From: Alphaproteobacteria bacterium
Lineage (GTDB): Bacteria; Pseudomonadota; Alphaproteobacteria; TMED109
Assembly (NCBI GenBank): GCA_022824395.1
Contig: JAJDZX010000040.1
Span: 1 to 64,000, forward strand
Direction of reading: 5' to 3'
Length of the DNA: 64,000 nt
How positions within the stretch are numbered: the stretch's first letter is position 1; each line of letters begins with the position of its first letter. The position numbers and the translations under genes were made by a program. This document shows positions 32,663 to 48,075 of the stretch, piece by piece. The notes beneath the pieces were generated by a model. It did no database searches and was not told the origin of the DNA. It saw only the letters and a list, made by a program, of their open reading frames with translations.

Positions 32663-33823
32663 ATGTCGCGGTCGTTCGATGTACTGGTAATCGGTGCCGG
32701 CATCGCCGGCGCGTCGGTTGCGGCGCGCCTCGCTCCCCACGGTCGGGTGGCCGTGCTGGAACGCGAGCCGATGCCCGGCTATCACACGACCAGCCGGTCC
32801 GCGGCGTTCTTCACCGAGAGCTACGGGAACCCCACCATCCGGGCCCTCACCCGCGCCAGCCGGGCGTTCTTCGAACAGCCCGAGGCGCACTTCGAGGGGC
32901 CGCTGCTGGGCGGGTGCGGGGGGGCGCTGTTCATCGCCAGGGCCGACCAGGCGGAGGCGTTCGACCGCGAATTCGGCGCCGCCCGCGCGCTCGATCCGGC
33001 GATCATCGAGTTGACCCCGGACGAGGCGGCGGCGCGGGTCCCGGTGCTCCGGCCGGGGTACGTGGCGCGGGCCTACTTCGAGGCCGCGGGCCGCGAGATG
33101 GACGTGGACCGCATCCACCAGGGCTGGCTGCGGACCCTGCGCGCGCACGGCGGCGAAACCGTGTGCAACGCCGAGGTGCGCGCCATCGCGCGGCGCCGCG
33201 GCGAGTGGCAGGCCGACACGCCGCAGGGAGCGTTCCGGGCGCCCGTGCTGGTCAACGCCGCCGGCGCCTGGTGCGACGTGATCGGCCGCCTGGCCGGGTG
33301 CCGGCCGATCGGGCTCGTGCCCAAGCGGCGCACCGCCATCGTGTTCGCGGCTCCGCCTGACATCGACATCGGCGCGTGGCCGGTCACACTGGACGTGGAG
33401 GAGGCGTTCTACTTCCGGCCCGACGCCGGCCGGATCCTCGCCAGCCCGGCGGACGAAACCGATTCGCCGCCCTGCGACGCCCAGCCGGAGGAGCTGGACA
33501 TCGCCATCGTGGCGGAGCGCATCCAGCTGGCGACCACCCTGCAGGTCGGGCGCATCCAGAACCGGTGGGCGGGACTGCGGAGCTTCGTCGCCGACCGGAC
33601 CCTGGTCATCGGGGAAGACCCCGGGCAACCGGGCTTCTTCTGGCTGGCCGGCCAGGGCGGCTACGGGATCATGACATCGCCCGCCGCCGCCGCCGCCTGC
33701 ACGGCCCTCGTCACCGGGTCGGCCTGGCCGGCGGGGCTGGCCGCCGAGGGGCTCACCCCGGAGACGTTCGCGGCCGCCCGTCCGGGGCTCGGCCCGGGCC
33801 GCGAATCCCCCGGCGCGGACTGA
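32663..33823 (+). CDS. FAD-dependent oxidoreductase, D-amino-acid oxidase family
   Basis: 386 aa. The Rossmann dinucleotide motif VIGAGIAGASVAARLA lies at residues ~9-24. The DAO-family pattern continues with LVNAAGAWCDVIGRLAG (~195), and the C-terminal GQPGFFWLAGQGGYGIMTSP is the second FAD contact. Members oxidise amines, amino acids or 2-hydroxyacids, passing electrons to O2 or quinones. I cannot name the substrate. It is a single gene; 182 bases separate it from the downstream cytochrome oxidase operon. Confidence 0.9.
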   Translation: MSRSFDVLVIGAGIAGASVAARLAPHGRVAVLEREPMPGYHTTSRSAAFFTESYGNPTIRALTRASRAFFEQPEAHFEGPLLGGCGGALFIARADQAEAFDREFGAARALDPAIIELTPDEAAARVPVLRPGYVARAYFEAAGREMDVDRIHQGWLRTLRAHGGETVCNAEVRAIARRRGEWQADTPQGAFRAPVLVNAAGAWCDVIGRLAGCRPIGLVPKRRTAIVFAAPPDIDIGAWPVTLDVEEAFYFRPDAGRILASPADETDSPPCDAQPEELDIAIVAERIQLATTLQVGRIQNRWAGLRSFVADRTLVIGEDPGQPGFFWLAGQGGYGIMTSPAAAAACTALVTGSAWPAGLAAEGLTPETFAAARPGLGPGRESPGAD

Positions 33824-46028: not shown

Positions 46029-47084
46029 ATGTCCGACCACGCGATCCGCCACAGGGAACGCACCTACCCGCCGCCCTATCCGGACGGCTGGTACCGGGTG
46101 GCGGCGTCCAGGGACGTCAGGCCCGGCGAGGTGCGGCACGTCCGGTGCGTGGGCGAGCAGATCGCCCTGTTCCGCAGCACGACGGACGCACGGATCGCGG
46201 CGCTCGACGCGTTCTGCCCCCATCAGGGCGCCAACCTGGCCGATGGCGTGGTCAAGGGGGACCGGTTGCAGTGCCCCTTCCACGGCTGGCAACTGGACGG
46301 GCACGGGCGGATTCGCTCCCACCCGCGCGCCGCTGACCAACCGCACGCTCACCGGCATTGGGAAGCGATCGACTACTACGGGATGGTCATGATGTACCGC
46401 TCGGCGCGCCCCGGCGCGCGGGCACCCTACCGGCTTCCGCCGCTGGCGAAGATCGACAGCCGGCAGCTTGTCCTGCGCGGCCAGCACGACGCGGGCGAGG
46501 TGGACATGCACATCATTGAATTTGCCGAGAACAGCGTGGACTTCCAGCATTTTCCGGAGCTGCACGGCGTGATGCGTATTCCCTGGACCAGCATCAGGCT
46601 GCCCTGGATCAGGATTCTCCACGAGCCATCGTGGTCCCTCGACGACACGCAGGAGCACGTCTCCTACTTCGGGGACGAGGCGACGCTGGAGATCGGAGGG
46701 CGGGTCTGCGAACGGACGAGATCCCGGGCGCTGATCACCTTTCTGGGCCCCGGCAGCATCGTGAAGTTCGATTTCTCCGTCCCGCAGATCGGGGATGTCA
46801 CCATGTTCCAGACCCACACACCCGTGGCAGCGCTCAAGCAGCGCGTGACCTTCCGCTGGTTTGCCGCCCGGCGCGTACCGCGAATACTGGTCTCCTACGT
46901 GGTCGGCAACTGGATCTCGCAGTGGCGGCAGGACGTGGCGATCTGGAAACGGAAAATCTACCGGCCGCATCCCGCACGGCCCGTGGATGACGGACCCAGG
47001 GGCGTGATGCACAGGTGGTACCGGCAGTTTTACCCCGACGACCCGGTTCCGAACCTGGCCGGAGGCTCTGACCATGGCAGCTGA
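46029..47084 (+). CDS. Rieske oxygenase of the DAF-36/Neverland (cholesterol 7-desaturase-like) type
   Basis: 351 aa. After an opener RTYPPPYPDGWYRVAAS, like the Neverland/DAF-36 N terminus, the 2Fe-2S Rieske cluster is C63-P-H65 and C82-P-F-H85 (CPHQGANL, CPFHGW). The mononuclear iron site is seen at D171-F-Q-H174 and H179 (ENSVDFQHFPELHG), the pattern of the sterol and steroid Rieske oxygenases (DAF-36, KshA, SdmA). The final third contains a hydrophobic segment (ILVSYVVGNWISQW). DAF-36 converts cholesterol to 7-dehydrocholesterol; here the substrate is inferred. It overlaps the sterol-methyltransferase-like gene by 11 bases, and no reductase partner lies nearby. Confidence 0.85.
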   Translation: MSDHAIRHRERTYPPPYPDGWYRVAASRDVRPGEVRHVRCVGEQIALFRSTTDARIAALDAFCPHQGANLADGVVKGDRLQCPFHGWQLDGHGRIRSHPRAADQPHAHRHWEAIDYYGMVMMYRSARPGARAPYRLPPLAKIDSRQLVLRGQHDAGEVDMHIIEFAENSVDFQHFPELHGVMRIPWTSIRLPWIRILHEPSWSLDDTQEHVSYFGDEATLEIGGRVCERTRSRALITFLGPGSIVKFDFSVPQIGDVTMFQTHTPVAALKQRVTFRWFAARRVPRILVSYVVGNWISQWRQDVAIWKRKIYRPHPARPVDDGPRGVMHRWYRQFYPDDPVPNLAGGSDHGS

Positions 47085-48075
47085 CTTCCACAATCCCATT
47101 TCCCGGGCGATCCGGCCCGAGGACACGGCCGACACGCTGTCCAGGTACCGCCGCAGCCAGGAGCGGGGCAGGGACGATTACGCCCGGATGGTGGAGGGGT
47201 TCTACGACCTGATTACGGACTTCTACGAGTACGGATGGGGTCAGTCATTCCACTTCGCGCCGGGGAGGGACGGTGCGTCGTTTGAGGAATCCCTCGCCGC
47301 CCACCAGCAATTTCTGGGCGAGGCCCTTGGCTTGCGGCCGGGCATGACGGTGCTGGATATCGGCTGCGGGGTCGGCGGGCCCCAACGCGCCATCGCGAGC
47401 AGGTTCGGCGCCTCGATCACGGGCCTCAACATCAGCGAATATCAGGTCGGGAAGTGCTCCGAGTACAACCGGAAGGCCGGCATGGACCACCTCTGCAGCG
47501 TCGTGCATGGCGATTTCATGGCCATCCCGGCGGAGGCCCAGACCTTCGATGCGGCCTACCATATCGAGGCCTTTCCACATGCACCGAACAAGGTGGCGGC
47601 CTACGCCGAGGTGTTTCGGGTCCTGCGGCCGGGCGCGGTCTTCGCCGGCTTCGAGTGGTGCATGACCCCCTTGTACGACGGCGCCAACCCGGAACACCGG
47701 GAGCTCAAGCAGCGGGTCGAATACGGCAACGCGTTGCCGGAAATCGCTTCCTTCACGGACGTCACTGACGGTCTGCAGGCGGCCGGTTTCGAGGTGATCG
47801 AGGTGCGTGACCACGCCTTGGGCGACGACGTGGAGCGGCCGTGGTATCGACCGCTGGAAGGCGGTGCCCTGAAGCTCAGGAACCTGCCGAGGACAGCTCT
47901 GGGTCGGAAAATCACCACGGCGGCGCTCCGCGTCCTGGAGGGAGTGCGCGCCGTACCCGAGGGATCGTTCAAGGTACAGGAACTTCTCAACGTGGCGGCG
48001 GACAACCTGGTGGCCGCAGGGCGGCTGGGAATCTTTACGCCGATGTACTTCCACAAGGCTCGCAAGCCGGGTTAG
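47074..48075 (+). CDS. Sterol C-24 methyltransferase-like SAM enzyme (ERG6/SMT type)
   Basis: 333 aa with the conserved SMT blocks in order: YEYGWGQSFHF (51-61), the SAM motif LDIGCGVGGP (94-103), IEAFPHAP (164-171, IEATCHAP in ERG6), FEWCMT (193-198) and PEHR (206-209), then DDVERPWYRPLEG and a C terminus of the eukaryotic SMT type (EGSFKVQELLNVAADNLVAA, FTPMYFHKARKP). SMTs methylate the sterol side chain at C-24 using SAM. Bacterial copies are known from uncultured bacteria, including sponge-associated ones. The 11-base overlap with the Rieske gene strongly suggests one pathway. No tail for membrane anchoring is evident. Confidence 0.88.
   Translation: MAADFHNPISRAIRPEDTADTLSRYRRSQERGRDDYARMVEGFYDLITDFYEYGWGQSFHFAPGRDGASFEESLAAHQQFLGEALGLRPGMTVLDIGCGVGGPQRAIASRFGASITGLNISEYQVGKCSEYNRKAGMDHLCSVVHGDFMAIPAEAQTFDAAYHIEAFPHAPNKVAAYAEVFRVLRPGAVFAGFEWCMTPLYDGANPEHRELKQRVEYGNALPEIASFTDVTDGLQAAGFEVIEVRDHALGDDVERPWYRPLEGGALKLRNLPRTALGRKITTAALRVLEGVRAVPEGSFKVQELLNVAADNLVAAGRLGIFTPMYFHKARKPG

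Follow-up and report, generated by a model that had tools for sequence, protein, structure and literature searches.

A Rieske oxygenase gene coupled to a sterol methyltransferase gene in relatives of sponge symbionts: a probable mobile sterol-tailoring operon

Two overlapping genes

What would a steroid-type Rieske oxygenase do for a bacterium when its gene is joined to that of a sterol methyltransferase (SMT)? The locus that raises this question belongs to a MAG (G000; 3.75 Mb, 93% complete) of a bacterium related to sponge symbionts, and the window, that is, the whole 64-kb stretch analysed, is the first part of a 158 kb contig. Six genomes of the same genus (G001 to G006) were compared with it. 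Both genes lie on the forward strand with intact frames: the Rieske gene (46029 to 47084) goes from an ATG at 46029 to a TGA at 47082-47084, and the SMT gene (47074 to 48075) from an ATG at 47074 to a TAG at 48073-48075. They share 11 bases (47074-47084), as a first-pass annotation had reported, and the observation lies well outside what chance would produce. A ribosome-binding-like GGAGG for the SMT gene can be read inside the Rieske gene (47061-47065, forward strand); it ends 8 bases ahead of the SMT start, and is not strictly conserved among the congeners. The products are called here Rieske2 (351 amino acids) and SMT2 (333 amino acids). Taken as a whole, the pair is best explained, and in our view probably so, as a coupled, mobile sterol-tailoring operon that combines SMT action on the side chain with oxidation by the Rieske protein.

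SMT2 scores 75.9 bits against the Pfam domain Sterol_MT_C (PF08498, cut-off 21.7), located at 47890-48069 (+), and 65.8 bits against Methyltransf_11. The ERG6-like blocks that the first-pass annotation had listed in order are all present, namely YEYGWGQSFHF (region I, 47224-47256, +), IEAFPHAP (region II, 47563-47586, +), FEWCMT, PEHR and FTPM, as is the SAM-binding motif DIGCGVGGP (47356-47382, +). Regions I and II and the SAM-binding motif were also located by alignment with yeast Erg6, to which SMT2 is 42% identical with the signature regions in common, a figure to be taken as a lead. In a tree, SMT2 falls into a clade of 15 rows (support 100/100) that is nested in the bacterial SMTs, separate from the SMTs flanking the main sterol cluster of these bacteria. 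No grouping with other methyltransferases was seen with Pfam or in the tree, and a generic small-molecule methyltransferase is ruled out by the Sterol_MT_C domain together with the Erg6 alignment. Membership of the family is well supported, and SMT2 would use SAM to methylate C-24 of the sterol side chain, on a presumed substrate and a presumed number of times.

The SMTs of sponge symbionts described by Brown et al. (2023, PMC10070321) have the family, the setting, the Sterol_MT_C domain and the motifs in common with SMT2; several of these related enzymes are active in vitro, and three produce 24-isopropyl sterols. SMT2 differs from them in that it forms a separate, well-supported clade, lies outside the main cluster and is coupled to a Rieske protein with a KshA_C domain. 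A scan with the SMT alignment on one genome per species gave 294 related stretches and 79 listed loci, among which jk18x isolate names, those of Ircinia sponge MAGs, are frequent (Kelly 2022, PMC9531527).

Relationships of the Rieske protein

The Rieske protein had been likened at first to DAF-36/Neverland, the cholesterol 7-desaturase. That it is of the steroid type is supported: it scores 78 bits for the Rieske domain and 58.6 bits for KshA_C (cut-off 23.3), and no grouping with aromatic hydroxylases appeared with Pfam, in the tree or in structure comparison. Its Rieske [2Fe-2S] motif C63-X-H65-X16-C82-X2-H85 (46215-46283, +) and its non-haem iron motif E167-X3-D171-X2-H174-X4-H179 (46527-46565, +) match, to the letter, those published for Neverland and DAF-36, C-X-H-X16-17-C-X2-H and E/D-X3-D-X2-H-X4-H (PMC7609953). 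However, KshA, the oxygenase of 3-ketosteroid 9alpha-hydroxylase, matches them as well, so that the motifs do not separate Neverland from KshA, and the likeness, although literally true, is not discriminating. Rieske2 and Neverland share these motifs and, along with KshA, a broad steroid Rieske group, KshA being reported in a review to cluster with Neverland (PMC4064121). Rieske2 differs in being bacterial and in lying in an SMT operon, and eukaryotic Neverland is absent among its PDB matches. A viral sequence collection contained no relative of Rieske2.

Residues C63, H65, C82, H85, D171, H174, H179 and D302 are invariant among 34 aligned proteins. D302 (46932-46934, +) is the expected third iron ligand, to be compared with Asp304 of M. 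tuberculosis KshA, which has been named as an iron ligand (PMC4064121). Given that all these metal ligands are kept, Rieske2 should be catalytically competent.

An AlphaFold model of Rieske2 reached a pLDDT of 35 from a 9-sequence alignment and of 85 from 34 sequences. Structurally it is closest to the five KshA chains, with Z scores of 26-27, ahead of the next family at 22.9; this result is not fully independent because KshA relatives were in the alignment behind the model. The Pfam domain and the ligand set are also in common with KshA. With KshA as the nearest structural relative, Rieske2 might be a KshA-type 3-ketosteroid 9alpha-hydroxylase of steroid degradation that stands beside an SMT by chance. 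Such a role has precedent in the interpretation of sponge MAGs: in a metagenome study, one cluster of KshA-like proteins consists purely, and another partly, of sponge MAG proteins, and these homologues were interpreted as steroid degraders (PMC5790920). However, Rieske2 is about 25% identical to KshA, is not nested within the KshA clade, has residues of its own near the third ligand (Y290, W295, S297-Q298-W299) and occurs in biosynthetic surroundings, in fixed coupling to a biosynthetic SMT. Moreover, when G000, a MAG that is 93% complete, was searched at E 0.001 with TIGR03213, a proxy model, there was no match to a BphC/HsaC-type extradiol dioxygenase, which tends to speak against a catabolic KshA role. 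We therefore hold this explanation to be improbable. Some of the sponge-MAG KshA-like proteins of that study may be Rieske2, or Rieske1, its KshA_C relative described below, and the pair suggests that some of the proteins so far called steroid degraders may be sterol-tailoring enzymes.

Another candidate is SdmA (or MsbB), the Rieske oxygenase of sterol C-4 demethylation. Bacterial sterol clusters usually include a Rieske protein for this step, and a search of G000 found no true SdmA, so that Rieske2 could be a C-4 demethylating substitute, acting before or after side-chain methylation. Rieske2 is, like SdmA, a Rieske oxygenase of bacterial sterol loci, but the SdmA of the source genus ends in a VanA_C domain, whereas Rieske2 has KshA_C. 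Against the SdmA model NF052579, Rieske2 scores 57 bits for a cut-off of 600, with a match that spans the Rieske domain only. In a tree that covers Rieske2 (14 proteins), Rieske1, KshA and SdmA, each of the four forms a single group, with support of 100/99 or better, and G006 carries a true SdmA homologue and Rieske2 together. SdmA identity as such is ruled out by the model score, the C-terminal domain and the separate clade, and we judge a substitute role to be quite unlikely. From the separate clades, the split between VanA_C and KshA_C and the presence of both proteins in G006, it follows that Rieske2 is neither SdmA nor an ordinary KshA: on sequence grounds, it is a steroid-class Rieske protein of its own, and a second Rieske class in bacterial sterol biology besides SdmA.

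Conservation and transfer of the pair

The first-pass annotation took the overlap as a sign of a coupled unit, and comparison bears this out. The overlap of exactly 11 bases recurs in four congeners (G001, G002, G005 and G006), and in five species of the genus, these four and the source, the pair is set among the same housekeeping genes, which rules out a recent acquisition within the genus. An overlap of the same length is present in a genome of another family of Alphaproteobacteria (G304, locus L192), in MAGs bearing the labels Rhodospirillaceae (L096), Gammaproteobacteria (L098) and unclassified bacterium (L099), and in a Dadabacteria MAG, there on a 178 kb contig (L100). In a Gemmatimonadota locus (L108) the Rieske and SMT genes are parted by a short gap, and in three others the order is reversed, SMT preceding Rieske (L130, Proteobacteria; L146, Polyangiaceae; L165, Binatota), with Rieske proteins 39-48% identical to that of the source. 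All members of the Rieske2 clade (14/14) adjoin an SMT.

The last observation can also be turned towards a different function. Every Rieske2 gene found adjoins an SMT, in either order, and not ring-modifying genes, and Rieske2 may accordingly oxidise the side chain that the SMT has built, for instance by dehydrogenating or hydroxylating it around C-24 to C-28, and so produce one of the unusual side chains of sponges. However, the characterised relatives of Rieske2, namely KshA, Neverland and SdmA, are to our knowledge all enzymes of the ring system, and we regard oxidation of the side chain as rather unlikely. Oxidation of the rings is the reading retained below.

Rieske2 proteins under other phylum or class labels are 67-74% identical to that of the source, compared with 73-91% within the genus. 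Such closeness of the two ranges indicates horizontal transfer of the unit. Since the genomes are MAGs, cross-phylum finds, as well as absences, bear a risk of assembly and binning errors, and short contigs carrying such pairs may be misbinned. Judging from these comparisons, we think it probable that Rieske2-SMT2 is a transferable sterol-tailoring operon whose two genes move together, as a fixed pair, from one bacterial phylum to another. The pair is under purifying selection, with dN/dS values of 0.13-0.30 among orthologues, within the range of the neighbouring genes.

The pairing is not obligate, however. In G004, only a C-terminal scrap of Rieske2 (L034:9469-9564; residues 321-352, 66% identity) is left upstream of SMT2; the Rieske gene has been deleted and the SMT retained, which means that the SMT can work alone. 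Several related SMT2 loci likewise have no Rieske gene within the flank examined.

Ircinia symbiont steroid clusters (Kelly et al. 2022, PMC9531527) and the msb cluster of Melophlus (PMC7074536) come from the same ecological setting, and resemble the present case in horizontal transfer, purifying selection, SMT neighbours and a fused epoxidase-cyclase. They differ in their genes, described as ERG24-CYP51-cyclase-SMT with SdmA/SdmB-type genes. In the literature searched, which was without supplementary files and most subscription journals, no KshA/Neverland-type Rieske protein coupled to a bacterial SMT was found, and the Rieske2-SMT2 operon is apparently undescribed, within the known sponge-symbiont sterol clusters. 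It points to an undescribed step of sterol modification in sponge bacteria, and provides a definite enzyme couple for testing, one present in several phyla. Whether unusual sponge sterols are of host or bacterial origin is also of consequence for the sterane record left by early animals.

Sterol source and candidate reaction

It had been suggested, as the window holds neither a squalene epoxidase nor an oxidosqualene cyclase gene, that the cell remodels acquired sterols. The argument from the window fails, for a genome-wide search for sterol synthesis genes, the check proposed with that suggestion, found in G000 a squalene epoxidase-oxidosqualene cyclase (SE/OSC) fusion gene on contigs other than the window's, along with SMT1, Rieske1 and an ERG2-type isomerase. 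The conclusion nevertheless stays plausible. The fusion gene is split: it breaks off near the end of contig C133 (near 33080-33225; L025 13080-13225) after '...EWLNPA', and its second part is found at the right end of contig C66 (L001). At both contig ends, the junctions show a target duplication of 7 bases (CCTGCAG) together with imperfect inverted ends of 13 bases, ACACTACTGTCCC / GGGACAGCAGTGT, and the same site is uninterrupted in G001: an insertion sequence splits the gene. As it is the only epoxidase-cyclase gene found, de novo synthesis in G000 looks broken or in the course of being lost.

Intact fusion genes are present in two of the six congeners (G001 and G006), and genome searches of the other four MAGs (G002 to G005) gave no cyclase match. 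Of eight further genomes in which Rieske2 is paired with an SMT, five encode a full-length cyclase (as a fusion in four, as a frame of 709 amino acids in one) and three have none or only a weak fragment; no cyclase was found in G304. Both sterol sources are thus represented among carriers of the pair, and acquired sterols are plausible for G000 and for the congeners in which no cyclase was found. Together, these congeners and the split-cyclase strain offer a natural series, with sterol makers at one end and likely scavengers at the other.

The persistence of SMT or Rieske2-SMT2 genes in the four congeners and G304, which have no cyclase match, could also mean that the two enzymes act on another isoprenoid or on a hopanoid rather than on a sterol, the more so as another cyclase type, probably a hopene cyclase, is present in G001, G092, G314 and G320. 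However, Sterol_MT_C is the SMT domain, relatives that carry it use sterols in vitro (PMC10070321), and co-occurrence with SE/OSC fusion genes in genomes is repeated. We find this alternative very unlikely, and continue with sterols as the presumed substrates.

In the mechanism proposed, Rieske2 and SMT2 would form a translationally coupled sterol-tailoring operon. SMT2 would methylate C-24 of a delta-24 or delta-24(28) sterol with SAM, and Rieske2, with electrons from a putative reductase, would oxidise the same sterol pool, most likely on the ring system, either by C-7 dehydrogenation (Neverland-like) or by B/C-ring hydroxylation (KshA-like). Substrates, regiochemistry and order of steps are those that we infer; as to the reaction, C-7 dehydrogenation is our tentative first choice, with hydroxylation next. 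The unit would spread horizontally between bacteria, most of them sponge symbionts, and would serve both sterol makers and bacteria that probably take sterols from the host or from neighbours.

A broader proposal, possible although on balance doubtful, is that bacteria own a Neverland-type 7-desaturase in a C-24 methyltransferase operon, spread horizontally in sponge microbiomes, and that symbionts make delta-5,7 alkylated sterols with it. If true, their products would be ergosterol-like, of the provitamin D type, and partly derived from host sterols. One sterol of an Ircinia sponge is a known oxidation product of 7-dehydrocholesterol, with relatives that bear 24-alkyl side chains (PMC6267468); this oxidised sterol would fit a Neverland-type symbiont desaturase, as circumstantial evidence.

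Other sterol genes complete the picture of the genus. The main sterol cluster, SdmB-SdmA-ERG24-CYP51-SE/OSC-SMT, occurs in G006 and in more than 30 related loci, and is already known (PMC9531527, PMC10070321, PMC7074536); the CYP51 of G006 scores 364 bits to CYP51 structures. A generic FA_hydroxylase gene is present in all seven genomes of the genus (7/7), to which the identity of a C-5 desaturase cannot be assigned. The third SMT type, in G005 (L038:2970-3863, -), groups with SMTs that stand beside Rieske1 in Nitrospira MAGs. SMT and cyclase fragments were also seen on a 3,576-base contig (L133) of a Patescibacteria MAG (OFTM362), in which it is likely misbinned.

The second sterol locus of G000 comprises SMT1, Rieske1 (a second KshA_C Rieske protein), a GPP34-P450 fusion, an MMPL transporter and a LolA-like protein; the ERG2-type isomerase gene is, in G002, located after the P450 of this locus. 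The MMPL/RND transporter and the LolA-like protein adjoin SMT1 (L024:8499-11952, -; L028-L032) and look as if they serve to carry sterols towards the outer membrane. Most congeners have, beside SMT1, a tandem pair of M16 peptidase genes (L028-L032). The fusion of GPP34 (Golgi phosphoprotein 3-like) with a cytochrome P450 is found at L030:11297-13255 (-) and L025:7038-9080 (-), and, cut by the contig end, at L024:14208-15314 (+). The GPP34 domain possibly anchors a sterol-oxidising P450 in the membrane, and SMTs also adjoin this fusion in MAGs of Nitrospira, Dadabacteria and Binatota.
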